Origin: Phycisphaerales bacterium UBA1845
GTDB lineage: Bacteria > Planctomycetota > Phycisphaerae > UBA1845
Assembly: GCA_002338715.1 (NCBI GenBank)
Contig: DDIR01000081.1
Location: 26,883 to 69,361, forward strand
Direction: 5' to 3'
DNA length: 42,479 nt
Positions 10,557-25,265 of the stretch are shown in pieces; the first letter of the stretch is position 1; every line of letters starts with the position of its first letter. A model generated the notes under the pieces. The model was not told where the DNA came from, ran no database searches, and saw nothing but the letters and a program-made list of their open reading frames with translations. The position numbers were made by a program, and so were the translations under genes.

Positions 10557-10791
10557 GCGCAATCAACGGTAACTCGGTATCCGCTAAACCGGACACACCT
10601 GTTGTTTGAAGTCACCCAACACCAGAAGCTTAATACACGCCCGAAGCGCTGGATACTACAACTCTGGGCCATCTTTGGAACGACTCGTTGAAATGGCCCC
10701 ATTGGGCTAGAATGCCCCAAACCGAACGTTTGGCGCGATTTCGGACCTGTGAATATCCCTTTGCCCCACGGCGAGGATGGAGAATCGGCAT

Positions 10792-11973
10792 ATGAAGGTG
10801 CTTTACTTTGACTGCTTCAATGGGGCGGCAGGCGATATGCTTGCCGGCGCTTTGATCGACTCCGGCGTGTCCATCGAGCGAATCCAAACCGAGCTAAAAG
10901 CCCTCAACGTTTCCGGATATACCGTCGAAGCCCAGGGCATTCGCAAGCAAGGGTTCGCAGCCACCAAGTTCGACGTGCATATGGATGCGACCGAAAGTCA
11001 GCCCCACCGTCACCTGCACCACATCGAGAAGATCATTGCCGAATCGACCCTATCGGAGCGCGTTCGCCGGCGGGTGATGTCGGTCTTCGAGCGGTTGGCT
11101 GACGCGGAAGCTGCCGCCCACGGAACAACCCGCGAAAAGGTCCACTTTCACGAAGTCGGCGCCATCGATGCGATCGTCGACATCGTCTCCGTATGCCTGG
11201 CCGTCGAGATCATCGCGCCCGACCGCATCGTGGCGTCGCATCTGCCCGTCGGTTCGGGCACCGTCAAATGCGAACACGGGATCATGCCGGTGCCTGCCCC
11301 CGCGACGGCGATGCTCTTGAAAGGCGTGCCGATTCAACAGACCGACGAAACCGGCGAACTTCTCACGCCGACAGCCGCCGCCCTGCTCACTGAGCTTTGC
11401 GACGAGTTTGGTCCGCTGCCGTCAATCAACATTGAACAGATCGGATTGGGTGCGGGCACGCGCGACGGGAAAACGCGTCCAAATATCCTGCGTGCATTGA
11501 TCGGAACATCGGTGGCCGCGTCCGAAAGCAGCAGCGATACGGTCGCGGTCCTCGAAGCCAACATCGATGACGCACCTGGGGAATGGGTTGGGCACTGTGT
11601 CACCCGCCTTCTTGATGCTGGTGTACTCGACGCCTACACGGTGCCGATATACATGAAAAAGGGACGGCCCGGGGTCGTCCTGTCGGTGATCTGCGAGCCG
11701 AAAGACCAGCGCCGCATCGAAGATCTGATCTTCAGCGAGACGTCAACCTTCGGCATTCGACACCGCCTGATGCAGCGATCGAAATTGAACCGCGAGCATC
11801 GCACCGTCGAAACGCCCTATGGACCGATTCGCATCAAGATCGGCTCGCGCGATGGGCAGGTGCTTTCGGCAACGGCTGAGTACGAAGACTGTGCGGCGGC
11901 AGCGAAGACACATGACGTCGCCCTTCGCACGGTTGTTGCAGCCGCAATGAAAACGTACGGCGACAATCAGTAG
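10792..11973 (+). CDS. larC: LarC, nickel insertase for the pincer nucleotide cofactor
   Basis: LarC inserts nickel into the pyridinium bis-thiocarboxylate mononucleotide to give the nickel-pincer cofactor of lactate racemase-type enzymes. The N-terminus MKVLYFDCFNGAAGDM is typical. His-rich HRHLHHIEK (72-80) and HFHEVGAIDAIVDI (118-131) are visible, as is the C-terminal half with VLEANIDDAPGEWVG. 393 residues in one continuous frame, whereas in Lactobacillus the two halves are joined by a programmed frameshift. ATG 10792 is preferred over ATG 10777 because GGAG sits nine bases upstream and family members start here. The stop TAG is the last three bases of the GTAG head of a REP element. larA, larB and larE are not in the window. 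Confidence 0.92.
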   Translation: MKVLYFDCFNGAAGDMLAGALIDSGVSIERIQTELKALNVSGYTVEAQGIRKQGFAATKFDVHMDATESQPHRHLHHIEKIIAESTLSERVRRRVMSVFERLADAEAAAHGTTREKVHFHEVGAIDAIVDIVSVCLAVEIIAPDRIVASHLPVGSGTVKCEHGIMPVPAPATAMLLKGVPIQQTDETGELLTPTAAALLTELCDEFGPLPSINIEQIGLGAGTRDGKTRPNILRALIGTSVAASESSSDTVAVLEANIDDAPGEWVGHCVTRLLDAGVLDAYTVPIYMKKGRPGVVLSVICEPKDQRRIEDLIFSETSTFGIRHRLMQRSKLNREHRTVETPYGPIRIKIGSRDGQVLSATAEYEDCAAAAKTHDVALRTVVAAAMKTYGDNQ

Positions 11974-12036
11974 GGTCCGCTGTGCGGACCGCAGAATTTT
12001 AACCCCGGGAAAATCGGTCCGCACAGCGGACCCTAC
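11970..12036. repeat. REP pair (BIME-like), GTCCGC type
   Basis: Two 21-base units in inverted orientation (11970-11990 and 12016-12036) around a 25-base spacer. Each unit has a GTAG head followed by GGTCCGC-TGT-GCGGACC, a perfect 7-bp hairpin; the right unit is the exact reverse complement of the left. The head and hairpin follow the rule for REP sequences mobilised by RAYT (TnpA-REP) transposases. The TAG of the left head is the larC stop codon. A second copy is at 24397-24457. Confidence 0.85.
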
Positions 12037-12077
12037 CTGAAGATATTCCTGAAGCCGACCAACAGAGGACCCGCCAC

Positions 12078-12548
12078 ATGGACGTTGTCGAGCAATTCCT
12101 TCCGCTGAACCTTCTCGCTGCCGCCGAACCGGAGGGGTTTACCACCCCGTTTCTGTTGGCTGTGTTGGTGATGACGCCAATCCTGATCTTGATGACCCGC
12201 CGGCGCTTGCGAAAGAATCGCTCCAACGCGCGAAGTGGTCGACCCAATCGAAACCACAAAGCCCTCACCATCGAACGACGGGCAGAATCAATCCGCTCGC
12301 ATAACGCGACAGAATCCGAGGCAGGTGCAGCGATGCTTGAATTCCAGGAATACGCCCGCACGATCCGGGCCCAGATCGACAACCGGTATCAGAAGCTGGA
12401 GTCGGCCACGGCCCACGCGGATCAGAAAATCGCCGAACTTCGGAAACTTCTCGCTCAGGCGGGATTCAGCCCAAGCGGTACAGCACCGGGTGTTGACCCC
12501 AATGTGGACGTCTGGCACAGCATTGCCGAGCCCCGCACGCAGGGCTAG
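12078..12548 (+). CDS. Small membrane-anchored coiled-coil protein of unknown function
   Basis: Not recognised. 156 residues with one hydrophobic segment (about 22-40, FTTPFLLAVLVMTPILILM) followed at once by an Arg-rich stretch (41-70), suggesting a cytoplasmic C-terminal part. Residues about 85-135 are predicted helical or coiled coil (AMLEFQEYARTIRAQIDNR, then QKLESATAHADQKIAELRK). The ATG follows an AGAGGA site by nine bases. It lies between larC and a P-loop gene on the same strand, 41 bases after the REP pair. Confidence 0.7.
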   Translation: MDVVEQFLPLNLLAAAEPEGFTTPFLLAVLVMTPILILMTRRRLRKNRSNARSGRPNRNHKALTIERRAESIRSHNATESEAGAAMLEFQEYARTIRAQIDNRYQKLESATAHADQKIAELRKLLAQAGFSPSGTAPGVDPNVDVWHSIAEPRTQG

Positions 12549-12672
12549 TTCAATTTTTTTCGATGCCGATCAACTCGAAGTAGTCCCGCCGATTTTGGAT
12601 GCCTAGAATTTGGCGTCAGGGCATGTGGTCACATTCTCTCAACATTCTCATGCACAGGTTGAACCCGGGCTT

Positions 12673-13500
12673 ATGGGACTGACCGTATCACTCGTCATCG
12701 GACCAAGGCACGCTGGCAAGTCCTCGCTCATTGGGGTGATCAAGGACGAAGTGTGCCAATCGAGACCGCACCTTCTGCGCCTCGTCCCAACCAACCGAGC
12801 CACACCTGCCAACATCGCGCACCTCAACCCTGCATCCAATCGCGAAAACCAAAACGGCTGCCAGTTTGAAAACATCATCTACGATCCCGAGCGCGTCTTC
12901 GAAACGCTTCCGGAAATCCTCACGCAAATCCATGCAAAGGACCGCTACGGGTGCGTGATTATCGAAGGCGATGCCGATCCGAACCTGCTTCAAGCCTACC
13001 CGTATGACTTCGCCCTCTTCATCATGCCTTCGCCGGAATCCGAAAACGATATCTTCCGGTCGAAGGATCAGGTGAAGAAGGCATTCGAAGCCGCGATGAA
13101 CGATACGGCCGCTTTCACGAGTGAGATTTTCGGTGTGGGCGGTGTGGATGATTCATGGTCAGGCGAGCGCAAGACGCCGCGACCGGACATGAGCGACACG
13201 CAGATGATTCGCCTTCTGGATTCACCGCTCGGTCAGGAACTGGCTTCGCGCATCCAATGCCATCCAGATTATCACGGATTGATCGACAGCAATGCGATTG
13301 TGGTGAATACAGGAATTGGTGCGACCTCGGGCGCCGCGGATGCGGTGGTCGCTCGGCTTGAGACATTGATCAACGACAACAGCCCGGTCAGCAACCACCG
13401 GTCAATCTACTGCTGCGACGTGCTCGATCGACACGACCCCCGCCGCAAAAAGCTTTTCACACACCTGAAGCAAACCTACCGCCTGCAACGAAACGCATAG
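12673..13500 (+). CDS. P-loop NTPase of unknown function
   Basis: 275 residues. An N-terminal Walker A motif GPRHAGKS (10-17, Lys16) follows a beta strand, and VIIEGD at 95-100 looks like a Walker B strand. The layout (P-loop at the very N-terminus, then a strand ending in an acidic residue) resembles MobB or dethiobiotin-synthetase-like SIMIBI NTPases, but no family signature could be confirmed. The C-terminal half has no recognisable domain. ATG 12673 is preferred over TTG 12610 because it puts the P-loop at the usual distance from the N-terminus; no strong ribosome site is seen at either. Last gene of the plus-strand run begun by larC. Confidence 0.7.
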   Translation: MGLTVSLVIGPRHAGKSSLIGVIKDEVCQSRPHLLRLVPTNRATPANIAHLNPASNRENQNGCQFENIIYDPERVFETLPEILTQIHAKDRYGCVIIEGDADPNLLQAYPYDFALFIMPSPESENDIFRSKDQVKKAFEAAMNDTAAFTSEIFGVGGVDDSWSGERKTPRPDMSDTQMIRLLDSPLGQELASRIQCHPDYHGLIDSNAIVVNTGIGATSGAADAVVARLETLINDNSPVSNHRSIYCCDVLDRHDPRRKKLFTHLKQTYRLQRNA

Positions 13501-13565
13501 AAATCAAAGAAGCGCGAAGGCAAATCGCGATTAAACCGCAGCAGCGCCTTCATTCCCGCAAAGAG

Positions 13566-13594
13566 CCGTCATTCCCGCGAAAGCGGGAATCCAG
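13566..13594. repeat. ATTCCCGC hairpin repeat, copy 2
   Basis: CCGTC followed by stem ATTCCCGC (13571-13578), loop GAAA and GCGGGAAT (13583-13590), then CCAG. Identical in plan to 34428-34455 and to the partial copy at 1-20. A degenerate half copy (cattcccgcaaag) precedes it at about 13551. It lies 65 bases past the P-loop gene and may cap that transcript. Confidence 0.75.
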
Positions 13595-13684
13595 AAGAAT
13601 ACAAAGAACCTCAAAAGGAATATGAGCCCCCGCACATCAAAGTTACGACGAGCCAATCGCAAAGTCAGGAATGAACCTGCAGCA

Positions 13685-13978
13685 CTACAACCAGAACTTA
13701 CTGCGAGTCGGTGATCCCGCGCCCATCTCTGCCGGCTTAACCGGCGGCCGGGCTGCCCAAGGTTTCTTCAGCTTAGCCGGTCGAATCACATCCATCGCCT
13801 GCAAAACGCCGCGTTGCTGATGCGGTGAAAGGGTGCGATAGCGCACCACCATGCGAACCTCTTCAATCGTCAGGTTAAAAACATCCTGCGAAGATCGATA
13901 CTCGATTTTCGTATTCGGTGTCTGCGTTGGACTCACGTCGCCGCCCTCACTGTTGCAGTTGAAAACCAATGGTGCCAA
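13685..13978 (-). CDS. Possible small protein of unknown function
   Basis: 97-residue open frame without an ATG start; TTG 13978 is the first possible codon and Met43 the first internal ATG. Codon usage resembles the neighbouring genes, and the middle part (FNLTIEEVRMVVRYRT, then LSPHQQRGVLQAMDVIR) looks like a folded helical segment. The frame stays open for about 110 bases upstream of the TTG without a start codon, so it may be a decayed remnant or a gene with an unusual start. It could also be a chance frame. Confidence 0.4.
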   Translation of the reverse strand: MAPLVFNCNSEGGDVSPTQTPNTKIEYRSSQDVFNLTIEEVRMVVRYRTLSPHQQRGVLQAMDVIRPAKLKKPWAARPPVKPAEMGAGSPTRSKFWL

Positions 13979-14052
13979 AAGACTGCCATGGTTATCGGAA
14001 GTTGCGGCGTTTGAGTTTTGGGCAAGTGCGACCGGACGCGACGGAATCCACC

Positions 14053-15546
14053 CTAGTTCAAGTCGAAGAACACCTGCAATTCGGCGAAGTCGGCCAAATC
14101 AACCGCCGTGTCAGCATTGAAATCGAAGCATTCGCACGCCAACCCCAGCCCGGTCGGCGATTGGGCAAGGCAAGTCGCGAAGGAATTGTAATCCGCAAGA
14201 TCGACGCTGATGTCGGCATTGCAGTCGCCTTCGATATCCACGATGGCGTCGTAGCTGGCCAACGGATCGCCGAGCACGACCGACTGCCAGCTTAGAAATG
14301 GCAGCGATGCGTAGGCGGCTTCCGCCCATGTGCGCTGGTTGACCAACATTCGCGTCATCAGGAATTCGTTGTCCGGTTGAGACACCGAAAAAGGTTCAAA
14401 CACGTTGCCCACTGCGAAGGTTCCGCCGGCGGCTACGAAGTCGGCGATCTGTTCCTGGTTGAACAATGTCCCGAGGCCATTGAGCGCGCGGGCGTTGTAC
14501 GATTCGATCGTGTTGAAGATCGCGCCCTTGGCGAAGTTGAAATTATTGATGTACGTCCCCGAGCCGGGCGGGTTGGCCCCCGCGCCTTCGTTGCTGTGGT
14601 TCTCACCGTATGACGCGTACGCGATTAGTGGACGCGGTTCTTCGCTCGATTCGATAAAGTCGAACGTATCGTCGTAGCGCACGTTCCATCCGTTGGCCGA
14701 CAGGATCGATTCCGTGTCTTCGTAGTCGTCGCCGGGGTCGATAAAGAACGGATCGTCATCAAGTTCATCGCCAACGGTCACGTCGAATTCGTCGAGGATG
14801 ATGTGCGTGGCGGCTCGGTTGACGGTGATGTCCTGTGCGCGGGCGATCAAATTCAGCGCATCGGTTTGCGAATTGCCGTCGATGCGACACACGAGGTACA
14901 TGTCACCGGGCGTCAGGCGTGCCGAACCGCTGCCAGCCACCGCCCACGCGATGTTCGATGCATTGGCGAAGGTCTTGCCGCTCGTGATGAAATTGCGCGA
15001 GAACGCATCGATGGCCGACACGCTGGTGTGATACGGATTTTGGATCATGTTGTCGGCGAAGCTGTCCATCTGCCCGCCGGCTTCCCCGCTGCTTAGATTC
15101 TGCCACAGCAACACCAACTCCGAATCGACCGAGGCATAGGTGATGTCGCCATCGTTGATTTCCGTCACTGCCGCGCTAGGATTGTCGCCGACCAACGCAT
15201 TGTCGCTATCGAGGATGCGATGTGGCATCGGGCGAATGAGAACGATGGCGATGATATCGCCAGGTTGCGGAAAGCCCGAGGCACTCAAATGGCTGCGAAT
15301 CGGGTTGCGCACCTTCGCGTTGAAGTCGGCGATCGTCAAGTTGGCGGTGAGCAGCGATGAATCGTTCAGGTCAACAACGTTTGAAGCGCCGATTCCCGGG
15401 TGGGCGGTGAGGTAGGCGTTCTTCAGCGCCGTGCCATCCGATGACGCGGAGTTGTAAACGACAAGCGTCTGACTCTCGGTGATTCCGCCACGCGCGCTTG
15501 AAACAACAGCCAAGGCGCCGACCAGCGCCAAGAGTCTGATTCGCAT
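14053..15546 (-). CDS. Exported TIGR03790-like protein with dockerin-like C-terminus
   Basis: 497 residues starting at ATG 15546 with a signal peptide (about 1-20). The opening pattern TLVVYNSASSDGTALKNAYL with PGIGASNVVDLN resembles the TIGR03790 family, known for occurring in species with PEP-CTERM sorting; a PEP-CTERM protein lies at 28065-28820. The rest may have a caspase-like alpha/beta fold (for example GPLIAYASYGEN-like strand and loop regions), but this is uncertain. The C-terminus (about 435-497) has two Asp-rich units, DCNADISVDLADYNSF and DFNADTAVDLADFAEL, typical of planctomycete dockerin-like calcium-binding repeats. The molecular role is unknown. Confidence 0.7.
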   Translation of the reverse strand: MRIRLLALVGALAVVSSARGGITESQTLVVYNSASSDGTALKNAYLTAHPGIGASNVVDLNDSSLLTANLTIADFNAKVRNPIRSHLSASGFPQPGDIIAIVLIRPMPHRILDSDNALVGDNPSAAVTEINDGDITYASVDSELVLLWQNLSSGEAGGQMDSFADNMIQNPYHTSVSAIDAFSRNFITSGKTFANASNIAWAVAGSGSARLTPGDMYLVCRIDGNSQTDALNLIARAQDITVNRAATHIILDEFDVTVGDELDDDPFFIDPGDDYEDTESILSANGWNVRYDDTFDFIESSEEPRPLIAYASYGENHSNEGAGANPPGSGTYINNFNFAKGAIFNTIESYNARALNGLGTLFNQEQIADFVAAGGTFAVGNVFEPFSVSQPDNEFLMTRMLVNQRTWAEAAYASLPFLSWQSVVLGDPLASYDAIVDIEGDCNADISVDLADYNSFATCLAQSPTGLGLACECFDFNADTAVDLADFAELQVFFDLN

Positions 15547-15702
15547 TGCTTCGACCCCATCGATTGATAACGGCAATGAGTGCTCGGATTCATCCGATGA
15601 CCCATTATCGGACCGCGCCAGCAATCAATGTACACAAGTGGGCAATACGAATACAAGGATTCGCCGCCGCGTCGAACGAGATGGCGATTCTTGTGCCGCA
15701 GT

Positions 15703-15767
15703 GTAGGGTGGGCCGTGCCCACCGCTGTTTTGGTGATTTACGGATTGGTGGGCACGGCCCACCCTAC
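15703..15767. repeat. REP pair (BIME-like), GTGGGC type
   Basis: Two 21-base units in inverted orientation (15703-15723 and 15747-15767). Each is a GTAG head plus GGTGGGC-CGT-GCCCACC, a perfect 7-bp hairpin with a 3-base loop. Head, stem length, loop length and inverted pairing are as in the elements at 11970 and 24397, but the stem sequence is different, so it is a second family. It ends two bases after the stop of the 15770-16084 lipoprotein gene. Confidence 0.85.
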
Positions 15768-15769
15768 GG

Positions 15770-16084
15770 TTAGTCGTCGTGGCGGTCTTCGCAGCGATCG
15801 AGGCGGCGTTCGCAATCGTCGTTGTCCTGCTTCAACTCGCGTTCCTTGCGTTCAAGACGACTGTTGCGTTCGCGGAGTTCGTCGATTTCGGCGTAGGCTT
15901 CTGCCAGTTTTCGGCGGGCGTCTTCGTGGCTGGTTGTATGCGGAACGGAACGCGTGTCCGTCGATCCACGATGCGAACGCCCATTCATGTTGATGCGCTC
16001 CGGGGCTTTAACCGATACGCAACCCCACATCGCAGTCGATGCCACAAACACGCCAACCGAAACAATGATTTGAGCACGCTTCAT
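15770..16084 (-). CDS. Small coiled-coil lipoprotein
   Basis: 104 residues from ATG 16084, set by AAGGAGT five bases upstream; an in-frame start at 16138 is not needed. The signal peptide ends in the lipobox MWGC (Cys22). After a Ser/Thr/His-rich linker (about 35-55) the C-terminal half is a highly charged helix with heptad pattern (EDARRKLAEAYAEIDELRER and on), ending in an Asp/Arg/Cys-rich tail. The layout is reminiscent of small envelope spacer lipoproteins; function is unknown. The REP pair lies directly past the stop. Confidence 0.8.
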   Translation of the reverse strand: MKRAQIIVSVGVFVASTAMWGCVSVKAPERINMNGRSHRGSTDTRSVPHTTSHEDARRKLAEAYAEIDELRERNSRLERKERELKQDNDDCERRLDRCEDRHDD

Positions 16085-16089
16085 TTCAG

Positions 16090-16096
16090 ACTCCTT
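16090..16096 (-). promoter_or_regulatory. Ribosome-binding site setting the small lipoprotein start
   Basis: AAGGAGT on the minus strand, five bases before ATG 16084. It rules out the upstream in-frame codon at 16138 and places the signal peptide at the N-terminus. Confidence 0.7.
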
Positions 16097-16294
16097 CCAT
16101 CCATTTGGCGCCAGGTGATCCGCCAACCGCATCACCACGAGGATGCTAACCGCTGGCCGCTGGTCGAGTCAATTAACTTTACGCTCGACACCCCCACCGC
16201 GGTTGTTGGCGGCTGGTCTCCTATCTTGCGTCGACTACACTACAGTCTGCGAAGATGGATTTGACGAATACATTCTGCCGACCGAAGTAAGCCG

Positions 16295-17521
16295 ATGAAT
16301 CGCAGTGAACGCTCTATCCTCACCGTCACGAGCATTGGACACGCCCTCTGCCATTGGTGTGCTTTGCTCGTCACGGGCATCTTCGCGCAACTACAAGCTG
16401 AGTTTGACTTGACCGGTCTTCAAGTGACTTCCCTGCCCGTCATCGGTTACGTCCTCATGGGCGCGGGAGCGCTACCGGCTGGCTACTTCACGGATCGATT
16501 TGGTCCGAAACCGATGCTCACCATCTACTTCGCATCAACGGCGCTTTCGTGCGTGGCGGCTGCCCTTGCCCCCAATGCCATCGCGTTTGCCGTCGCGCTG
16601 ATTTTCGTCGGAGCGGCAGTCAGTTTGTATCACCCCACCGGACTCGCGATGATTTCGCACGGATTTGAAAAGCGCGGTCAAGCGATGGGCATTCACGGAA
16701 TCGCGGGTTCGTTTGGTTTGTGTGGTGGTGCGATCGCGGGGCTTTTGGCGAATCTTTGGAATTGGCGGTTGGCGTACTGGGTGATGGCCGCGGTGGCGAT
16801 GGCGTCTCTTGTGGTGCTCTTGATCATGCCCATCGCACTGCGCGACGATCCTCGCAAGGATGCGAAGGTTGAACAATCGACCGCCGAACCACGACGGGCA
16901 CCGACACTTCTGCTCGTCCTTCTGTTCGTGCCGATGATGCTGACCGGTATCAACTATCGCGCGATCATGATAGCCCTGCCGACGTATCTTTCCGGTGATG
17001 GCGGCGACTCGATGCTGAAGAGCACCCTGGTCATCCTGGTGTTTCTCGCCGGCGGCGCCAGTCAGTTCCTGATGGGACGTTATGCCGATCGAACCCACCC
17101 GTCCAAACTTTACGCCAACATGATGGCCGCAAGCATTCCGTTGGCGCTCATCCTCGCTTGGTCCGGAGGCGGGTCGTACTTTGCCATCGGTGCGGCGCTG
17201 GCGCTCGCGATCGTTCATTTCGGTACGCAACCGATTGAAAACCTGCTCATCGCTGAACACACGCCGCCGTCGCTCCGAAGCATGTCGTATGGCCTCAAGT
17301 TCACACTGACATTTGGTATTGGCCCAGTCGCGGTTCCGCTGGTGGGATATCTTTGGGATGTGACGGGTACGTTGGCTTGGACGTTCGTGTTTTTTGCGGG
17401 TGTTGCGCTGATTGTGGCGATCTTGATCATGCAACTCGTCAAGGTTGTGGATGCCCAGTCCGCAGCGCCGATTGAGCCTGCTCACCCATCGCCATGTCTA
17501 GGGACCGTCGATCAAACCTGA
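16295..17521 (+). CDS. MFS transporter (Fsr-like)
   Basis: 408-residue major facilitator with about twelve membrane segments and a cytoplasmic loop near 183-203. The loop-2 motif GYFTDRFGPKP (63-73) and, in the second half, MGRYADRTHPSK are typical MFS signatures. SLYHPTGLAMIS around residue 110 resembles the YHP/FHP motif of fosmidomycin-resistance-like exporters. The substrate is unknown. The 3' end overlaps that of the convergent protease gene by 24 bases (17498-17521). Confidence 0.85.
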   Translation: MNRSERSILTVTSIGHALCHWCALLVTGIFAQLQAEFDLTGLQVTSLPVIGYVLMGAGALPAGYFTDRFGPKPMLTIYFASTALSCVAAALAPNAIAFAVALIFVGAAVSLYHPTGLAMISHGFEKRGQAMGIHGIAGSFGLCGGAIAGLLANLWNWRLAYWVMAAVAMASLVVLLIMPIALRDDPRKDAKVEQSTAEPRRAPTLLLVLLFVPMMLTGINYRAIMIALPTYLSGDGGDSMLKSTLVILVFLAGGASQFLMGRYADRTHPSKLYANMMAASIPLALILAWSGGGSYFAIGAALALAIVHFGTQPIENLLIAEHTPPSLRSMSYGLKFTLTFGIGPVAVPLVGYLWDVTGTLAWTFVFFAGVALIVAILIMQLVKVVDAQSAAPIEPAHPSPCLGTVDQT

Positions 17522-20500
17522 CAGGCTCGTCCAGTCGTCGATGTCGATGATGTCGCCTGCCGCGTCGATGTCTGCACACGCACAGCCGGGGTTGGCCGCC
17601 CTGCTCTTACCAAAACAGCCGGTGAAGAGATACATGTCGTATAAGTCGTAGTCGCCGTCGCTATCCATGTCGCCAGGAGAAAGGCAACAATCGCCAATGG
17701 ACAGTTCTGCCGGATCGCTTACCAACGCGCAGTTCGGACCAATCGTCAACGCCCGCATCGTGTATGCGCCCGCATCCGCAGCGTCGACATTCGCAATGCT
17801 CAAGGTGTTTTCAAAAACGCCCGAAACACCGTTGCCATTGGTCAGCGCCAAACCATTTCTGAACCATTGCGTGAACTGCGAGAACCCCGCGGGCGATTCG
17901 GGTGTTGCGGTGAACACCGCAGTCTCTCCGACCTCAACACACAGGTCACTGGGTTGCTGAGTGAAGACTGGCCCCACAATCTCCAACGCCGTTGGATTGG
18001 ATTCAACCGTACGCCCGCATCCATCCGTGATCAGACAGGTGTAACCTGGGGTGTCGGCTTCGTCCGCCACCTGAAGGTGGGTGATCGTAAGGCTTGCGGA
18101 ATTGGCGCCGGAGAATCTTTCGCCGTTTGAGACAGGCGATTGATCTTTGAACCATTGATATTGAAGTTGGTAACCGCTCGCATTGACGGCGAGGATCACG
18201 GTCGTGTCCGTGCATCTGGACAAGATCGATGCCGGTTCCGATTCGATCGTCGGTTCGGGCCGCAACGTGATTTGCGCCGGCTCGCTTTCACGCGCGACGC
18301 ATCCGACCATCACCACGCAGCGATACGAAGCCAACGCAAGCTCATTGACATTGCCGATCGATAGCACCGACGTTGTCACACCGCTGTAGTTCGACCCGTT
18401 CACCAGCGGGACGTCGTCTTTTGTCCATTGAAACCCTGTGGCATCGGGCGCACCAACGGACAATTGCGCACTCGCCCCTGGACACACCTGGACGGACGCC
18501 GGTTGAACCAGAATCAGCCCTTCCGACTCACAATCGTCCGGGACGCCATTCGCGTTGCAGTCCGGCTCATCGCAGACATCGGGCACGCCGTTGAGATTAC
18601 AGTCGCTGTGATCTTCGCAGGTATCGAGAACACCGCTGTCGTCGCAATCGGGATCAATCTGAAGATCGCAAATACCGCAGCCGAATTGTTCGACAAGCGT
18701 GACGCAGGTCTCGTCCCACTCGTCGTCGCAACACGACGGTGCATCCTCGCACACGCACGCGCGGATCGTTGGGTTGGTACAACCGGCGCCGTGCTCGATC
18801 TCGCAGCAGTCGCCAGGACCGACAAAATCGATTTCGCATTCGTCCGGCAGGAGGTTGTCATTGCAGTCGGTCGACGTACCTCCGGCAAGATCGCACGTGT
18901 CGAGCACGCCGTTACCGTTGCAATCCACCAATTCGCACTCATCGGGGATTGCGTTGCCATTGCAGTCGGTGCTTGTCGCCCCGCTTAAGTCGCAGGCATC
19001 GACGACACCGTTGGCGTTGCAATCGCCTTCACATTCATCGGGCACGCCATTCGTGTCGCAGTCGACGGACACGGTGCAGACACCGCACCCATATTGCTCC
19101 ACACGAAATGCGCAGATTCCGTCCCAGTTCACGTCGCAACAATATGAATCGATTGCGCATACACACGATTCGAGCGTCTTGTCGGAACACCCCGCACCAC
19201 TGCCGCCTGCGCAGCAATCGTGGCCGAATTCACCGGTCAATTCACACGAATCGGGCAATCCGTTTTCGTTGCAGTCTGCGTCGCCCGCAGTCACGTCACA
19301 GTCATCGGGGATGCCGTTGCCGTTGCAATCCGTCTCGCATTCGTCGGGTAAGTCGTTGTTGTTGCAATCGCTGCTGGTGGGCCCGATCACGTCGCAACTG
19401 TCGGCGATTCCGTTGCCATTGCAGTCGGGTTCGCACTCGTCGGGAACGCCGTTTCCGCTGCAATCGTTGCTGAAACCGCTAGCGACATCGCAGATGTCCT
19501 GAACGCCATTCGTGTTGCAGTCATCTTGTGACTGGCATTCGTCCGGTATGCCGTCACCATTGCAATCCTGCGAGCTGCCGCCGTTGATTTCGTCAAAATC
19601 CGGGATGCCGTTGGTGTTGCAGTCGGGTGGTTCCGATGCAACTTCACCCGTCGCAATCAATGCGTACCCCTGCGATCCTTGATTGACAGCCGTCCCTCGA
19701 ACACGAACGGTCCATTGACCGATCGCAGGCGCAGTCACGTGAATTTGCTCGACATTGTTCAGACTGTCGGGCGTGCCACCGGGAATCGATGCGCCGTTGA
19801 CAAAAAAGTTGCCGTGATAGACTTGCCCGCCTGGTGACACTGCCTCCAGATCAAGGTTGTTCACCAGCGCCAATCCGCCCCCGGTCGTCGCAGCGGCTGG
19901 TGGATCGGTCCATACGAGCGTGATCCGCATCTGCTCAACATCGTTGATCACCGTCACGGTATATTCGCCGGTCTCACCGGTGGTCAGACCCGACGCGTTG
20001 CGCACATCATCCAACACCACAAGGTTGAGCACATCCCCTGCGAAGTAAACCGCATTGTCGGCGAGGAGTCGTCCCCAGCCTTCCAGATTCGACGGATAAC
20101 CCCCGATGCCGGTCATATCGACTGACGAGTTGATCAAGACGCTCTTGATCAGCGCCCCACTTGGCGTGCGTGCGTCCGCTGTCGTCGCAATGCCTGACGG
20201 GTAATATCCGTCCATGAAATATTGGCGCACCAGGGTCGCTGCACCGGCGACGGCTGGACACGCCATCGACGTACCCGTGTCGGACAGCACGCTGCATGCG
20301 CTCGGAACAGCCGAAATCGTCGAGCAGCCCGGCGCATAGACTTCGGGTTTGCGCCGTCCGTCCGCAGTCGGGCCCGTCCCACCGCTGCAATGGAGGTGTT
20401 GATTGGGCGTATCCCGAGACGCGGCGACAGCCAGCAAATTCTTCGCGTTTTCCGGATTGCGAAGCAGCGATCCATTCGTCACCGCCAGGCAAACAAAGTC

Positions 20501-21586
20501 GTCTTCATTCTGATAGAGAAAATCGTCAAACCCGCGACAAAGTCCGTTGTACGCCGTGGTGCCGTCATCGCCCCAACTGTTCGTGTGAATGCGTGCGCCT
20601 TGCGAATGATGCAGATTGAGTCTGGCCGTCACACCGGCTTCGGTAAAGGTTGGAATCGTGCTGTACACCAAGTGGGCTTCGTATGCGACGCCCTGCCGGT
20701 TTGGACCGGACGAATCGTCACCTGCCGCGGTGCATGCAACATGCGTACCGTGAAAGCTGTTACCGTCAGATGAGTTGTAGAAAAGAAACTTGCCATCATC
20801 GAGCGAGCAATGGTCCTTGTCCGGCTGCCCGTCCATCAATCCGATGATCTGATCTTCTCCGTGAATTCCGTTCTCATAAAATGGGAGTTGGTCGGGTTGA
20901 TTACTCTGCACAATCCAACGGGTGGTGTCGTTTCGGTAGGTCAGTTCCGGCGCTTCCTCGACGAATTGAACCGCTGCAATGTCCGAAAGCGCATCGACGC
21001 GATCCCGGTCGATGTCCACAAAGATGATCTGGTTGTCTGCAATCTGATCGCCGCCCCGAACGGTCGCACCGGCTTTTTCCAAGGCGGTACGTGTTTGGCC
21101 CACACTCTCGTTTGCAAAAAGTGTCACGACCAAACGCACGCGATCCTGCTCGGCCAATCGGATGCGTTCATTGGTTGAGAAAGGGGCGATGCGTTGACCG
21201 ATCACGGGCGAACATTTCCAACCGCGTTTGTATTCGCCGACCCATTGCACAAACGAAAGCGCCGCAAGCTTTTCCCTTGGGACACGGCTGACGTCGGCGA
21301 TGTAGGCATGGTCCGGGACATATTCCTGCAGAACGACGCCGAATTGGCTTAGCTGCTTGCGTTGGTTTTCCGTGATCGGACCGGTCAGTTGAATCACAAC
21401 CGGACGACTCGGCGCAAACCTGGCATTGGCATCGCGCAGAAGGTTGGGTTCGTCACGCGTGTCCAACGCTCCAACGCCAAGATTCAATCGACGCGACGCC
21501 ATCCGCTTTGCTGCGTCGGCTTGTTGACCGGCTGCCATTGCGGGACAAAGCGATACGATCAGGATGGTTGTGATCAAGCGACGCAT
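17498..21586 (-). CDS. Secreted subtilisin-like (S8) protease with Asp/Cys repeats and Ig-like domains
   Basis: 1,362 residues from ATG 21586 (TTG 21601 is also in frame). Order: signal peptide (1-20); propeptide-like region with two similar beta-alpha units (about 60-215); S8 catalytic domain (about 235-460) with Asp252 in LMDGQ, His279 in HGTHV, Asn371 and Ser440 in GTSMACP; a beta-rich P-like domain (about 535-645); roughly fifteen Asp-Cys-Asn-x-Asn-Gly units (about 654-1019), a planctomycete calcium-binding type. The unit array holds two Cys-rich modules (about 790-837 and 928-972, pattern CC..G.GC...CVC...CC...W). Three Ig-like domains (about 1024-1295) and a dockerin-like end (about 1299-1362) follow. 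Likely exported and active outside the cell on large substrates. Confidence 0.9.
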   Translation of the reverse strand: MRRLITTILIVSLCPAMAAGQQADAAKRMASRRLNLGVGALDTRDEPNLLRDANARFAPSRPVVIQLTGPITENQRKQLSQFGVVLQEYVPDHAYIADVSRVPREKLAALSFVQWVGEYKRGWKCSPVIGQRIAPFSTNERIRLAEQDRVRLVVTLFANESVGQTRTALEKAGATVRGGDQIADNQIIFVDIDRDRVDALSDIAAVQFVEEAPELTYRNDTTRWIVQSNQPDQLPFYENGIHGEDQIIGLMDGQPDKDHCSLDDGKFLFYNSSDGNSFHGTHVACTAAGDDSSGPNRQGVAYEAHLVYSTIPTFTEAGVTARLNLHHSQGARIHTNSWGDDGTTAYNGLCRGFDDFLYQNEDDFVCLAVTNGSLLRNPENAKNLLAVAASRDTPNQHLHCSGGTGPTADGRRKPEVYAPGCSTISAVPSACSVLSDTGTSMACPAVAGAATLVRQYFMDGYYPSGIATTADARTPSGALIKSVLINSSVDMTGIGGYPSNLEGWGRLLADNAVYFAGDVLNLVVLDDVRNASGLTTGETGEYTVTVINDVEQMRITLVWTDPPAAATTGGGLALVNNLDLEAVSPGGQVYHGNFFVNGASIPGGTPDSLNNVEQIHVTAPAIGQWTVRVRGTAVNQGSQGYALIATGEVASEPPDCNTNGIPDFDEINGGSSQDCNGDGIPDECQSQDDCNTNGVQDICDVASGFSNDCSGNGVPDECEPDCNGNGIADSCDVIGPTSSDCNNNDLPDECETDCNGNGIPDDCDVTAGDADCNENGLPDSCELTGEFGHDCCAGGSGAGCSDKTLESCVCAIDSYCCDVNWDGICAFRVEQYGCGVCTVSVDCDTNGVPDECEGDCNANGVVDACDLSGATSTDCNGNAIPDECELVDCNGNGVLDTCDLAGGTSTDCNDNLLPDECEIDFVGPGDCCEIEHGAGCTNPTIRACVCEDAPSCCDDEWDETCVTLVEQFGCGICDLQIDPDCDDSGVLDTCEDHSDCNLNGVPDVCDEPDCNANGVPDDCESEGLILVQPASVQVCPGASAQLSVGAPDATGFQWTKDDVPLVNGSNYSGVTTSVLSIGNVNELALASYRCVVMVGCVARESEPAQITLRPEPTIESEPASILSRCTDTTVILAVNASGYQLQYQWFKDQSPVSNGERFSGANSASLTITHLQVADEADTPGYTCLITDGCGRTVESNPTALEIVGPVFTQQPSDLCVEVGETAVFTATPESPAGFSQFTQWFRNGLALTNGNGVSGVFENTLSIANVDAADAGAYTMRALTIGPNCALVSDPAELSIGDCCLSPGDMDSDGDYDLYDMYLFTGCFGKSRAANPGCACADIDAAGDIIDIDDWTSLSGLIDGP
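18530..19630 (-). repeat. Asp-Cys-Asn-x-Asn-Gly coding repeat array
   Basis: Within the protease gene, about fifteen short units encode DCN-x-NG-x-P/x-D-x-C-E/D. On the plus strand they appear as recurring ttgcagtc / cgttgcaatc blocks. The array is interrupted twice by a Cys-rich module. The regular Asp and Cys spacing suggests stacked calcium loops locked by disulfides, forming a rigid stalk. Confidence 0.75.
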
Positions 21587-22019
21587 GCGCGATGTGCCCA
21601 AGTGCCAAGGGTCCTACCTGTGCGAAGGATCCGGCTGGTGCAAAGGAATCGTCCAGTCATCAATCCTACAATCCGATGACGCCATTCCGTTCGATGCATC
21701 ATCTTAGAGTGTACGACGATCGCTGAGAGTGCACGTCATTATAGGTTCCGACCGACACGTGTTCCAAGCGTACATGAGTTCAACGTGCGACACCGTTGTG
21801 TCTGGAGTTTGTCCGGAACACACCTGCGATCACCCGTGTGTCTTACGCGCCACCTGTGGACACGAACTGCAAACCTGCTTTGGTCGGGCCGCCTGCTCGC
21901 TTAATGGCCCCCAAATCAGCCTCGTTTGCTCTGTCAAGCCGCCATCGTCAAAATACCGCCCACGGGTTGGATGCGAATCCAGAAACACATCACAGTCGAT
22001 CTTCAGAAAGGGAACTGCC
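21587..22019. other. Intergenic region between protease and DUF1579 genes
   Basis: 433 bases between two divergent genes. It holds the proposed protease promoter (21738-21767). An open frame runs from 21729 into the DUF1579 gene but has no signal peptide before residue 98 and unusual composition, so it is read as leader sequence. No other structure was seen. Confidence 0.6.
21738..21767 (-). promoter_or_regulatory. Proposed sigma70-type promoter of the S8 protease gene
   Basis: On the minus strand TTGGAA (21767-21762) is followed after 18 bases by a perfect TATAAT (21743-21738). The transcript would have a leader of about 145 bases before ATG 21586. Confidence 0.4.
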
Positions 22020-22628
22020 ATGCGACGAACCATTGTCATCTCTGCGCTGGTCTTGGGAGCACTTACGATTTCGTTGACAGCGGACGAAGGTGAACAACCG
22101 ACTGCCACGCCTCCGCCATCCGACATGGCCGCGATGATGGCCAAAGCCAAGAAATACACCGAGCCGGGTCCGAATCACAAAGTGCTGGAGCGCTTTCTTG
22201 GCAAGTGGAATACCGAAACGCGACTGGCCATGGGGCCCAATGGAACGCCTGAAAAAGGCGTGGCCGAGTTCTCCTGGTTGATGGAAAACCGATGGCTTAA
22301 GAGTGATTACAAGAACTCAATGATGGGCATGCCTTACGATGGCTTCATGCTCATGGGCTACGACAACTTCAAGCAGAGCTTCGTCATGACCATGGTGAAC
22401 AGCCTCGACACGATGATGACGCACGCCGAAGGGGACATGGACCAAACTGGAAAGGCGATGATTCTCTATGGGCCGATGGATGAGTACCTGACCGGCGAGA
22501 ACGACAAGATGGTCAAGTACATTTGGCGATTCGAATCCGACAGCAAATTCAAACTCGAAGTCCACGACCTGCACATTGGCGAAGAAAACACGATGGTGGT
22601 GGAGATCACGTTCAACAAGGCGTCGTAA
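22020..22628 (+). CDS. Exported DUF1579 protein
   Basis: 202 residues from ATG 22020, placed by AAAGGGA six bases upstream. A signal peptide (about 1-20) is followed by a Pro/Thr linker and a DUF1579 domain (about 45-200); recognisable parts are FLGKWNTETRL, GVAEFSWLMENRWL and YDGFMLMGYDNFKQSFVM. The family is a calycin-like beta barrel of unknown function, common in planctomycetes. The HDOD gene converges on it from the right, 82 bases away. Confidence 0.85.
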   Translation: MRRTIVISALVLGALTISLTADEGEQPTATPPPSDMAAMMAKAKKYTEPGPNHKVLERFLGKWNTETRLAMGPNGTPEKGVAEFSWLMENRWLKSDYKNSMMGMPYDGFMLMGYDNFKQSFVMTMVNSLDTMMTHAEGDMDQTGKAMILYGPMDEYLTGENDKMVKYIWRFESDSKFKLEVHDLHIGEENTMVVEITFNKAS

Positions 22629-22648
22629 CCGCAAACGCCCTAGACCTA

Positions 22649-22690
22649 ATTGACCAGCCCGAATTGATCAGCCCGAATCGATCAACCTGG
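22649..22690. repeat. Three tandem 14-base units
   Basis: attgaccagcccga, attgatcagcccga and atcgatcaacctgg stand in direct tandem between the convergent DUF1579 and HDOD genes. The first two differ at one base; the third is more diverged. Possibly replication slippage; no function is seen. Confidence 0.6.
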
Positions 22691-22710
22691 GATCGAACGT
22701 CGCAAGCGTC

Positions 22711-23586
22711 CTACGACTGGAGGACGCTCTGCGCATCGGCCAGCGATTCGGGCAATGCATCGCGAATCTCAACCAGCTGCTCGATCGAGACGCCCACGCA
22801 ATCCAGAAGTTCCTGCGTGAACTCTTCGTTGGCCGCGGTCCAGTGGAAACCGTGCTGTTCCTGACAGCAGAGGATGTCGGCTGTGTGCACAATCATGCCG
22901 ATGCGCTTCAGCTCGTCCGAAAGCTCGTCCGGATTGTGGTGATATCCAACTGCCGCACGCAAGTGCCTCGGGAATTTCCACTTGGTTGTCAGTGCGTCGC
23001 CCAATTCCTGGTGCGTCGGACCAATCAACTCGCGCTCGAGGTCGAGCCAGTTTTCACCGCCGGTGCTCGCGCGCCTTGCGATCTCATTTAGCTGCTCGGG
23101 GAATGCCTGGCGTTCAATGAGAATGCCAAGGTCATGGATCAAACCGGCGAGGAAGACTTCGTCATGACCGGCCACATCGCCAGCCGCAATACAAATGTTC
23201 TTTGCACAGACCGAGACGGCGAGGCTATGCACCCACATCTGCTTGGCGTCAAAGTGCTCTAGCTGATTGCCACTCTTGAACATCCGCGAGATCGACGCCG
23301 CAATCGAAATGTTCTTGACGGCTGACAACCCGAGTAGCACGATCGCGCGATCCACGCTCGCCACCTGACCGGGCAGACCATAGAACGCCGAGTTGACGAC
23401 CTTTAGAACCTTGGCCGACAGTGCGGGGTCTTGCTTGATCACGTTGTGCAAGTCGCGGGCGGTTCCTTTCGGATCTTCCACAACTTCGATGATCTTGACG
23501 GTCACCTCGGGCAAAGTTGCGATCTCACCAACCGCGGCAATGGCCTTCGCGACGATGGCTTTGTTGTCTTCAGTTTGAACTTGCAT
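22711..23586 (-). CDS. HDOD-domain protein
   Basis: 291 residues from ATG 23586, with AGGAG five bases upstream (23592-23596). The HDOD domain spans about residues 20-215, with LPEVTVKIIEVVEDP near the start and an intact His-Asp pair in GLIHDLGIL (151-152). HDOD proteins are regulatory relatives of HD phosphohydrolases and usually act in signalling, for example with chemotaxis or cyclic-di-GMP circuits. No partner domain or signalling gene is adjacent, so the input is unknown. Confidence 0.9.
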   Translation of the reverse strand: MQVQTEDNKAIVAKAIAAVGEIATLPEVTVKIIEVVEDPKGTARDLHNVIKQDPALSAKVLKVVNSAFYGLPGQVASVDRAIVLLGLSAVKNISIAASISRMFKSGNQLEHFDAKQMWVHSLAVSVCAKNICIAAGDVAGHDEVFLAGLIHDLGILIERQAFPEQLNEIARRASTGGENWLDLERELIGPTHQELGDALTTKWKFPRHLRAAVGYHHNPDELSDELKRIGMIVHTADILCCQEQHGFHWTAANEEFTQELLDCVGVSIEQLVEIRDALPESLADAQSVLQS

Positions 23587-23759
23587 GATGGCTCCTACGA
23601 GCAACGTCTGGACAATCCGTCACCGATCAATTCGGCTGAGTCCGACTTCCGTTTGTGTACTTCGGCACGGGTTTCGGCTGTATTTAGAAGGTAATATATT
23701 GCTGCCTGGGGAATTTCTGCGAGACGAATGCACGCAGACAATATCGGTCGTTTCAGATA

Positions 23760-24389
23760 TTAACGGTCGAATACCTGCTGGTGCCCCATCCAAAGACTTT
23801 CCCCGCATGCCGCCAACGCAAGCATCGGAAGCGTCCACATCAGCATGATCGGCCAGACCAAAATGGGGCCATCCATTGCAATCGATTGGGTTATCGGGAG
23901 TTCGCTTTGAACCAGGGCGAGTGCCAGTGTCAAAACGATCGCCGGCAATTCCAACATGTTCAGCAACATTCCGATAACCGAGACGTGATCCCCGCCCAAC
24001 CCCGCGTTTTTTTCGGCGTCGACCTTGTCGCCATCTACCCCGATGGCATCCCCCTGCCAGCCGAACTCGATCACCAGCACACGCAGCGCCGCCCCCATCG
24101 CCACGCCAACACCCGCAATCGCAAACCACGGCAAAAGCGCCACGCGCCCGCTCGCCACCAACAACATACAAATTCCCGCGTTGTTGACAAAGATGGCGAT
24201 CGAACGGAGCAGCCATGATGGCCGCTTGAGAACCGGCACGAGAACTTTCAAGACCCACCAGCGCATTATGCGCGTCAGCACGAAGTCCGGTGCCTGCGTC
24301 ATCCCCCATCCGGAAATCGCGCCAATGACCAACACGAGTCCACCGAACAAGCCGGGTTTCAATAGCGCCAGGATGTTCTCGACATTCAT
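23760..24389 (-). CDS. Multi-pass membrane protein of unknown function
   Basis: 209 residues from ATG 24389 with five or six hydrophobic segments. A central region with FVNNAGICMLLVASG and a Gly/Ala-rich segment is faintly reminiscent of SpoIIM/DUF95 membrane proteins, but this is not secure. A hydrophilic loop (about 115-130) separates two membrane halves. It is on the same strand as the Ntn-hydrolase gene upstream, with the REP pair 24397-24457 between them. Confidence 0.7.
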   Translation of the reverse strand: MNVENILALLKPGLFGGLVLVIGAISGWGMTQAPDFVLTRIMRWWVLKVLVPVLKRPSWLLRSIAIFVNNAGICMLLVASGRVALLPWFAIAGVGVAMGAALRVLVIEFGWQGDAIGVDGDKVDAEKNAGLGGDHVSVIGMLLNMLELPAIVLTLALALVQSELPITQSIAMDGPILVWPIMLMWTLPMLALAACGESLWMGHQQVFDR

Positions 24390-24396
24390 ATCAATC

Positions 24397-24457
24397 GCAG
24401 GGTCCGCTGTGCGAACCGTTTTGGGGCACGACAACCGGTCCGCACAGCGGACCCTAC
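24397..24457. repeat. REP pair (BIME-like), GTCCGC type, left unit decayed
   Basis: Second copy of the element at 11970. The right unit (24437-24457) is identical to that copy. The left unit (24397-24417) has GCAG instead of GTAG and one mismatch in the hairpin stem (GCGAACC). It fills the space between the membrane protein gene and the Ntn-hydrolase stop. Confidence 0.85.
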
Positions 24458-24462
24458 TGGCA

Positions 24463-25041
24463 TCAGCGCGCCCGGATCACGACGACATCGGTCGTTCCAC
24501 CGCACGTCTGCTCAAAGTGAACAGCCGCCTCCACCGCGGCTTTGGCGATCTGCTCAGCCGTTCGCTTGCTGTTGTAAAGCGCATGCAGCGCCCCATACGC
24601 ATAGCGCTCGCCCGAACCGATCGCCGCATACTGGGCGAACTCCATCACGCTGAGATCGCGCGACACGGCGAAGATGCCCTTGGGACTTCCGACCATAAAC
24701 TCCGCGTCGATGTCGGCGAACGGTGAACGGTCGTCGCGGTCCGGCTGATCGTTGACGACCTGATATTTCTTACGAATCGCCTTCCAGAACTTCAGGAAGA
24801 AGTCGAAGATTTTGGGCTGATCGAGCAACGATGGCGCACGTTTGAAACTGCCGAGGTAGTGGTCGAGGATGTTGTCGTAAACCGACCACCCCACGCCCCC
24901 CATGCAACACGACCCCACCTTGCGCAACTTCGCCGATGAAACAAGATTCTCTTCATGCTCACGCCGCGACCCGGAAGAATGCATCCGGTCAGCCGCCACC
25001 GCGATCTGATCGCCCTTGCGGACGGCAACAATGATCGACAT
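24463..25041 (-). CDS. Proteasome/HslV-like Ntn-hydrolase with N-terminal Ser
   Basis: 192 residues from ATG 25041, supported by GGAG eight bases upstream; a TTG one codon earlier is ignored. The N-terminus MSIIVAVRKGDQIAVAADRM matches HslV and beta-type proteasome subunits, where the Met is removed and residue 1 is the nucleophile. Here that residue is Ser, not Thr. Asp17 (mature numbering, in AADRM) and a Lys in SSAKLRKVG (Lys37) fit the Asp17/Lys33 active-site set with a short insertion; GSGE and GGTTDVVV match the later core strands. No hslU or other unfoldase gene is adjacent. Substrate and oligomer are unknown. Confidence 0.75.
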   Translation of the reverse strand: MSIIVAVRKGDQIAVAADRMHSSGSRREHEENLVSSAKLRKVGSCCMGGVGWSVYDNILDHYLGSFKRAPSLLDQPKIFDFFLKFWKAIRKKYQVVNDQPDRDDRSPFADIDAEFMVGSPKGIFAVSRDLSVMEFAQYAAIGSGERYAYGALHALYNSKRTAEQIAKAAVEAAVHFEQTCGGTTDVVVIRAR

Positions 25042-25265
25042 CAAACGAACTCCATTTCAAGAAACCACGTCAGAACCCGGAAGGATGATCGAAGGAGGCA
25101 TTGCGGTCAATGGGCAAATCGTGCCTTGCACGTCCACTGGGGCGTTGGAATGGTCAAGTTTGTGTTTGTGCTTGCCTGTGCTTCGAGCTGCTCGTTAACA
25201 TCTCCCAGCAGATTCCGTTTGATAACAAAGCAGCCGCATGACTCGATGCCAACTGGAGAATCGAC

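Follow-up and report, generated by a model that had tools for sequence, protein, structure and literature searches.

R. baltica is a planctomycete. Its genome is among those in which coexisting GTAG families of REPs were reported by Di Nocera et al. (2013; PMC3733652), who also noted that the TAG at the end of such a repeat can serve as a stop codon. The families described there carry a GTAG head, stems mostly of 6–9 bp and, in many cases, loops of 2–3 bases; head-outside dimers are favoured in most of them, the partners mostly lie 20–100 bases apart, and several families with repeat-specific REPtrons may share one genome, planctomycetes being among the hosts. The DNA analysed here has the same features. 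In the window (the whole stretch of 42,479 nucleotides), three loci carry inverted pairs of a 21-base unit made up of GTAG, a 7-bp stem and a 3-base loop, and they lie where an earlier note had placed them (Table 1). They are REP pairs of the GTAG type (REPINs). The GTAG head and the short stem-loop are present in five of the six window units; the sixth is decayed, so that the description of the third locus as two units stands for the right unit but not for the left as an intact copy. The left units of pairs 1 and 2, folded singly, give the 7-bp stem and 3-base loop, and every whole pair folds into a single long hairpin (z = -10.6, -10.1 and -7.0 for the three pairs, with DNA energies). No Rfam match was found in the window at gathering thresholds.

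Table 1. Units and spacers of the three REP pairs in the window
Feature	Positions	Strand	Composition or remark
GGTCCGC-family REP unit, intact	11970..11990	+	GTAG-GGTCCGC-TGT-GCGGACC
Spacer of pair 1, 25 bases	11991..12015	.	
GGTCCGC-family REP unit, intact, inverted partner	12016..12036	-	GTAG-GGTCCGC-TGT-GCGGACC
GGTGGGC-family REP unit, intact	15703..15723	+	GTAG-GGTGGGC-CGT-GCCCACC
Spacer of pair 2, 23 bases	15724..15746	.	weakly matches family spacer consensus, 9/14 scored positions
GGTGGGC-family REP unit, intact	15747..15767	-	GTAG-GGTGGGC-CGT-GCCCACC
GGTCCGC-family REP unit, decayed	24397..24417	+	GCAG head and one stem change (2 mismatches)
Spacer of pair 3, 19 bases	24418..24436	.	
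GGTCCGC-family REP unit, intact (perfect)	24437..24457	-	

Perfect units number 45 for the GGTCCGC family and 142 for the GGTGGGC family in the genome under study (G000), and the reversed patterns have no perfect match in either case. With up to three mismatches, the GGTGGGC unit has 128 + 145 matches against 5 + 6 for its reversed control, and the GGTCCGC unit has 42 + 45 against 5 + 3, some of the GGTCCGC matches being one palindrome found again on the opposite strand. The units are thus not due to chance, and, as the earlier note's proposal of a REP system implied, the copies are many and mostly stand as head-outside inverted pairs. In 1.02 Mb of the genome such pairs hold 114 of the 138 GGTGGGC units and 38 of the 53 GGTCCGC units (the latter including one pair, L137:11823, whose true stem is GGTGCGC). 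The spacers of 39 of the 57 GGTGGGC pairs are 22 or 23 bases long and most of these resemble one asymmetric consensus, so that the GGTGGGC pair is what is copied. No such consensus was found among the spacers of the 19 GGTCCGC pairs of this genome (one of them really GGTGCGC), which therefore do not show that this family is copied in pairs, although the GGTCCGC family of the related genome G002 has a conserved 31-base spacer. Outside the GGTGGGC heads, conservation stops after one base: a C just before the head (0.54 bits, n = 124), more weakly preferred in the GGTCCGC family (0.19 bits, n = 46), with nothing clear further out that could be a target-site motif. The last base of the loop is T in all 45 perfect GGTCCGC units and, in the sequence fetched, in 107 of 109 perfect GGTGGGC units.

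The suggestion that there are possibly two transposases was borne out, and the search for Y1-type genes flanked by matching units succeeded. GGTCCGC units stand on both sides of RAYT 1 (L002; 191 aa) and GGTGGGC units on both sides of RAYT 2 (L003; 182 aa); both genes are outside the window. The two score 182 and 187 bits with NF047646 (curated cut-off, 80), are 50% identical and have the motifs DHLH and YIHxNP in common, which provide both with the HUH motif and a predicted catalytic Tyr whose role as nucleophile is assigned by position. The RAYT motif NP(L/V)(R/K)xG (PMC2817692) is NPVKHG in RAYT 2 and NPIKHG in RAYT 1, in which I takes the place of the L or V of the motif. E. coli TnpA-REP (4er8) is the sole solved relative of RAYT 2 at E ≤ 0.001.

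The genus has five comparable genomes (G000–G004). In G001 the pairing of RAYT and family repeats itself: the closest relatives there, L092 (87% identical) and L309 (72%), adjoin the same stems and are flanked by REPs on both sides, as are RAYT 1 and RAYT 2. Kept for comparison were the best 80 of 546 relatives. G002, G003 and G004 contain many perfect units, and no RAYT of the close kind appears among the matches listed for these drafts, in which loss and missing sequence are indistinguishable. The best matches listed have E = 4.8e-26 (92.5 bits), 4.8e-23 (83.1 bits; interrupted by an in-frame stop) and 4.9e-13; the first two score above the curated cut-off, yet fall in the same weaker class as L004 and L005, and the RAYTs flanked by such units all exceed 150 bits. 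A RAYT is no guarantee of spread, since G036 has a GGTGGGC RAYT (L102) yet only three perfect units. RAYT remnants were sought between widely spaced units (C97:37046-37741 and C58:43975-44764, roughly RAYT-like in spacing), and other ORFs were found enclosed; in six segments, tblastn with both RAYTs gave a best E of 0.11, and blastn gave just one 28-base match (E = 0.026, in C90). L005 was also rejected as the transposase of CGTC-tagged repeats, having one CGTC repeat upstream and none downstream, with none at 16 other loci.

Very probably, then, these are two GTAG-type REP/REPIN families of non-autonomous mobile hairpin pairs, each family with its own RAYT acting on it in trans. The RAYT (TnpA-REP), a single-tyrosine transposase of the HUH type whose gene lies elsewhere in the genome, would recognise the GTAG head and the folded stem-loop of its own family in single-stranded DNA, would then nick nearby DNA through its tyrosine and would carry the whole pair to a new location. 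The insertions that survive often lie just behind genes, and at some of them the TAG of the head closes the reading frame. No transposition, cleavage or expression was observed, and the activity of the RAYTs is extrapolated from characterised TnpA-REP proteins.

At all three window loci, the head of one unit directly follows, or overlaps, the stop codon of an open frame. The TAG of the left unit of pair 1 (11971-11973) is the stop codon of ORF 10777-11973 (Pfam Ni_insertion, PF01969), and the heads of the right units of pairs 2 and 3 lie 2 bases past the stop codon of ORF 15770-16138 (-) and 5 bases past that of ORF 24463-25044 (-; Pfam Proteasome, PF00227). Heads cluster behind stop codons across the genome as well: a codirectional ORF of at least 100 aa stops between 21 bases inside and 200 bases before the head in 133 of 191 units (1.02 Mb; these counts, which bear on how far the units are extragenic, rest on ORFs). 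The unit itself provides the stop in 31 of the 174 cases with intact TAG, the frames entering a unit (31 : 6 : 6) favour the TAG frame, and 12 cases among the 174 lie in a read-through frame of an ORF of at least 100 aa. Such crowding would be expected if selection maintained the hairpins as regulatory elements of the host at the 3' ends of genes, whether as stabilisers of mRNA ends, as hairpins coupled to translation or as terminators, and the link to RAYTs were a side issue, an explanation that we consider rather unlikely. Its terminator version fails: runs of at least 5 T in 10 bases follow 4 of 38 GGTCCGC and 3 of 113 GGTGGGC pair ends (4.9% of random 10-mers), and 15 terminator-like sites, including one on the 15703 unit, were found in window positions 11500-25000 against 14.3 in shuffled sequence, so that the pairs were rejected as intrinsic terminators. 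Each family, moreover, adjoins its own RAYT, and one of the two is mostly missing from corresponding sites in a relative.

That relative is G003, of the same genus, in which an exact half unit was found at 10 of 11 syntenic GGTCCGC sites versus 3 of 28 GGTGGGC sites (Fisher p = 4.5e-6), a site being scored as occupied when the gap, or sequence at most 200 bases from it, contained an exact 11-base half unit, with the mixed-family cluster #25 omitted and one G003 unit possibly counted twice at #53 and #54. The survey covered 1.61 Mb of fetched G003 sequence, in which 72 of the 112 clusters had no syntenic flank pair. The 25 GGTGGGC sites that lack an exact half unit speak against a host element, but at least four of them have decayed relics, judged by eye (#45, #65, #69 and #72). 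G004 has, and G003 lacks, most of the GGTGGGC copies tested. Absence from G003 may reflect loss there as well as gain elsewhere. The GGTGGGC family has either spread later or been largely lost in G003, gain and loss not being separable with one outgroup, and the GGTCCGC family looks like the older layer, largely at ancestral sites and for the most part fixed behind genes. Individual loci vary too: pair 1 has a spacer with two changes in G004 and is wholly absent from G001 and G003. For base-exact empty sites G003 is too diverged, and the only empty site seen in G004 is at window locus 3, with GTA where the head would begin; it may have lost its pair or never been filled, the two being indistinguishable. 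Relatives differ, then, in presence and absence, and the earlier term "active or recently active" suits GGTGGGC at best, on a time scale between species; no jump of recent date was seen. The same note had held that conservation of the units as terminators of orthologous genes would speak against a REP system. The GGTCCGC family partly shows such conservation, being mostly shared at orthologous sites, but T-runs do not mark the pairs as intrinsic terminators, and the conservation at orthologous gene ends stands beside the RAYT link without displacing it.

Three GGTCCGC pairs are intact in both G000 and G003, with identical heads and stems and diverged spacers: the arms agree at 124 of 126 positions, both differences being in a loop, against 60 of 89 for the spacers and 285 of 350 for the 60-base flanks, clusters with gaps >700, N or long segments being omitted from this comparison. 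A host element would leave this pattern, yet other GGTCCGC sites common to the two genomes are decayed or collapsed (#2, #42 left, #51, #54 left and #92). Alternatively, the arms may stay perfect by self-correction and not by selection, each arm templating its inverted partner. The retention of arms while spacers drift would fit, and collapsed palindromes that join two half-arms (in G003 at locus 3, and at L144:3098) suggest that arms interact; however, self-correction would match arms to each other and not to a family consensus, and GGTCCGC units without an intact partner in G000 are intact in both genomes (#42 and #52), which makes this explanation distinctly unlikely. Under the reading of two RAYT-served families, the older GGTCCGC hairpins might have turned from mobile DNA into fixed gene ends, with spacers drifting but heads and stems under selection for a 3'-end role that does not depend on the transposase, and they persist in relatives that seem to have lost the RAYT, the GGTGGGC family perhaps being at an earlier stage; we offer this tentatively, as something that probably does not hold.

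RAYT 1 and RAYT 2 fall in separate supported clades. On the RAYT tree (96 rows, 44 of them without a stem label; proteins <120 aa and the duplicate locus L090 excluded), the stem type of the 52 labelled RAYTs switches 19 times, against a mean of 31.1 and a minimum of 28 in 200 shuffles. It is very unlikely that one RAYT serves both families, the second being a relic or a spectator. The GTAG head, the GGT..GC ends of the stem and a 3-base loop with T as its last base are common to both, but units of just one family flank each RAYT, both in this genome and at the closest relative in G001, and the two proteins differ at half of their positions and in clade. The GGTGGGC stem is found in separate RAYT lineages with different loops, CGT around L003 and its kin and A-first around L093, L095 and L096; thus stems can converge, and the loop, to judge from these sequences, may carry lineage-specific recognition. 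Residues that determine stem specificity could not be singled out by 408 residue tests against stem positions 4–5 in the 52 RAYTs: the best association listed, for an R shortly before WQRRFWE (RAYT 2 position 108; Fisher 2.5e-5), is uninterpretable because only three phylogenetically independent pairs exist.

The presence of two REP families with different histories and their own transposases in a single genus, for which five genomes can be compared, amounts to a good natural experiment on the ageing of a mobile hairpin family, on the possible change of its hairpins into functional gene ends, and on the RAYT residues that read a given stem or loop. The REPINs GI–GIII of Pseudomonas fluorescens SBW25 (Bertels and Rainey 2011, PMC3116915) are likewise described as inverted REP doublets that replicate as a unit, with a different family beside each of three RAYTs and with singlets arising through decay or collapse to a long palindrome; the host is different, and excision was seen there by population sequencing. 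The TnpA-REP/REP duos of E. coli, S. maltophilia and Marinomonas (Corneloup et al. 2021, PMC8266576) share the HUH and Tyr motifs, the GTAG head and, as in group 3 of that paper, a perfect palindrome with a short loop, but are known from biochemistry, whereas ours are known from sequence. Di Nocera et al. (PMC3733652) treat 24 families, and the likeness drawn here is to their descriptions and not to consensus sequences; relative to what is described there, the present analysis adds occupancy at orthologous sites within one genus. Coexisting REP families with their own RAYTs are already in print, and the two families of this planctomycete are a clean new example.

Inverted pairs of 21-base units are present at the three window loci proposed in the earlier note, whose coordinates and stem assignment (GGTCCGC at loci 1 and 3, GGTGGGC at locus 2) both hold. 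All units had been taken as intact; five of the six are perfect, whereas unit 24397-24417 is decayed, with GCAG instead of the GTAG head and one changed stem base. The claimed 7-bp stem and 3-base loop were reproduced by folding two single units, and one long hairpin was predicted for each of the three pairs. The final few codons of the nickel-insertion protein gene are unlike those in the same-genus genomes G001 and G003, where the pair is absent. The core palindrome of the CGTC repeats, including its CCAG end, occurs 41 times in 1.02 Mb of the source genome (G000) and eight times in 1.6 Mb of G003; such repeats apparently have no dedicated transposase (PMC3733652).

Coordinates of repeats and adjoining features (window positions unless a locus or contig is named)
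Feature	Position	Remark
Locus 1, GGTCCGC pair	11970-12036	
Locus 2, GGTGGGC pair	15703-15767	
Locus 3, GGTCCGC pair	24397-24457	
CGTC-tagged palindromes (CGTCATTCCCGC..GCGGGAATCCAG)	13567-13594 and 34428-34455	third repeat kind in window
ORF of nickel-insertion protein (PF01969)	10777-11973	stop codon inside REP head
Pairs with rare third stem GGTGCGC	L137:11823-11887 and G003:C10:360432-360495	spacer resembles GGTGGGC-family spacer; the G000 orthologue of the G003 site carries a GGTGGGC pair
Direct near-copies of 39-base sequence around L005 (G000:C68)	1394-1432 and 2050-2088	contain an inner palindrome
L005-type palindrome in G003 (G003:C10)	L274:2100-2116	adjoins homologous gene

Both families are multi-copy. 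The G000 assembly (5.25 Mb, 148 contigs) contains 45 perfect GGTCCGC and 142 perfect GGTGGGC units, and the reversed-pattern control gave 0 for each. With up to three mismatches, there are 87 (versus 8 reversed) and 273 (versus 11 reversed), respectively, including some palindromes counted twice, once per strand. In 1.02 Mb of G000, selected mainly around already known units, 191 units (154 perfect) were catalogued, and 38 of 53 GGTCCGC units and 114 of 138 GGTGGGC units are paired with the heads outside. The GGTGGGC pairs mostly have a common, asymmetric spacer of 22-23 bases, near GCCGTTTGAATGCCAACGACAT (39 of 57 pairs have this length). GGTCCGC spacers in G000 range from 14 to 51 bases, with no consensus across the 19 pairs in the 1.02 Mb, one of which (L137:11823) actually carries the stem GGTGCGC. 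The GGTCCGC family of G002, another same-genus genome, has a conserved 31-base spacer. There, by eye, many of the 22 copies shown (loci L208-L227) sit in a longer repeat whose flanks are conserved on either side, a pattern suggestive of a composite-element burst.

Five Y1-type genes were found in G000 by six-frame search. Two of them, L002 (182 bits) and L003 (187 bits), are RAYTs by NF047646 (cut-off 80); three GGTCCGC units lie around L002, and L003 is flanked by one GGTGGGC unit per side. The two transposases suspected earlier, flanked by the same units, thus exist, each bordered by one family. They are 50% identical, and E. coli TnpA-REP (4er8) is the sole solved relative of L003 at E <= 0.001. 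L004 and L005 (91 bits) are likewise above the cut-off and L001 scores 44 bits; none of these three extracted loci contains a GGTCCGC or GGTGGGC unit. The inner palindrome at L005, a weaker RAYT-like gene, has no further copy in the examined parts of G000.

A RAYT tree was built by a quick method, with SH-aLRT as its sole support measure, from 96 RAYTs of at least 120 aa (from the best 80 of 546 named-genome loci, the loci of relatives and two more), 52 of which were labelled by two or more nearby units sharing a single 7-base core. L002 groups with L092, L097, L086 and L078 (all GGTCCGC) and L020 (GGTCGGC) with support 93, nested in a 16-row set (96), and L003 groups with L309, L102 and L006, all GGTGGGC (99); the L102 and L006 proteins are identical, the former coming from a same-order genome and the latter from a Phycisphaerae MAG, which points to a Phycisphaerae planctomycete as the probable host. 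Stem type changes 19 times on the tree, versus a mean of 31.1 and a minimum of 28 in 200 shuffles, and so tracks the tree more than in shuffles. Presence or absence of GGTGGGC takes six changes; therefore this stem was gained or lost repeatedly. Its loop is CGT around L003 and its kin, and begins with A around L093, L095 and L096. G001 has close relatives of both L002 and L003, and its third RAYT, L308, is bordered by two GTCGGGT units on one side, the contig ending on the other.

No RAYT of close kind was found in the drafts of G002, G003 and G004, also same-genus genomes, where the best scores among the matches listed were 92.5 bits (G002), 83.1 bits (G003, interrupted by an in-frame stop) and E 4.9e-13 (G004); this reflects either gene loss or a gap in the draft assembly. 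These genomes hold 215, 60 and 41 perfect GGTCCGC units and 86, 13 and 182 perfect GGTGGGC units, respectively. A further genome, G036, has a GGTGGGC RAYT, yet three perfect units.

The proposed comparison among relatives revealed that all three window loci differ in occupancy. The locus 1 pair occurs in G004 and in neither G001 nor G003. G004 is also occupied at locus 2, going by coordinates, and there the pair is missing from G001, G002 and G003. Locus 3 is filled in G001, is a single collapsed palindrome in G003, and showed no unit at the site in G004 and G002. In the G003 comparison (1.61 Mb; 40 of 112 unit clusters with both flanks syntenic), an exact half unit occurs at 10 of 11 GGTCCGC versus 3 of 28 GGTGGGC clusters (Fisher p 4.5e-6). 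G004 has a unit at the syntenic position for six of eight GGTGGGC pairs (two 20-kb stretches, judged by coordinates), the other two positions being ambiguous. From these counts, the GGTCCGC layer appears to be the older one at most of the sites tested. The GGTGGGC layer is either younger or was largely lost in G003: its common spacer favors the former, and decayed relics at no fewer than four of the other 25 clusters in G003 (#45, #65, #69 and #72, by eye) mean that some loss took place. At #50, the pair is GGTGCGC in G003 and GGTGGGC in G000, with spacers that look alike after reversal (by eye). Locus 1 indicates later insertions or losses in the GGTCCGC family too.

Three GGTCCGC pairs (#23, #44 and #59) are intact in G000 as well as in G003. 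In these, 124 of 126 arm bases are identical, both differences being in the loop; the figures are 60 of 89 aligned bases for the spacers and 285 of 350 for the 60-base flanks. Of the 18 units counted as GGTCCGC, including the two from #25 with the stem GGTGCGC, 15 align in G003, with 296 of 314 bases identical, G000 units having been picked as near-perfect and G003 units not. Because other shared GGTCCGC sites show partial decay, this sample is mixed as well as small.

Of 174 units with intact TAG, 31 close an upstream ORF (at least 100 aa; raw open frames) with that TAG as its stop codon; the figure for all GTAG in the same sequence is 204 of 2373, REPs counted in. Frames running into a unit are distributed 31 : 6 : 6 in favor of the TAG frame (p 2.6e-7), and GTAG REP ends have been reported to provide TAG stops frequently (PMC3733652). 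This bias is compatible with a scenario in which the surviving insertions are those ending a frame cleanly; target preference is a possible alternative. The pairs do not resemble intrinsic terminators: T-runs (five or more T within 10 bases) follow 4 of 38 GGTCCGC and 3 of 113 GGTGGGC pair ends (4.9% of random 10-mers qualify), and the window has about as many terminator-like sites as shuffled sequence.

Direct observation covers the structure, the number of copies, the association with a specific RAYT, and presence or absence at sites. By analogy with characterized TnpA-REP systems (described in PMC8266576), the RAYT would recognize the folded single strand, its tyrosine would nick the DNA, and the pair would move as a unit. 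The layered history and the in-place conservation of the arms are the aspects worth pursuing. Coexisting GTAG families with their own RAYTs are already known, and UBA1845 is a further example: PMC3733652 describes several GTAG families per genome with repeat-specific REPtrons, R. baltica being among such genomes, and in SBW25 three families adjoin three RAYTs (PMC3116915).
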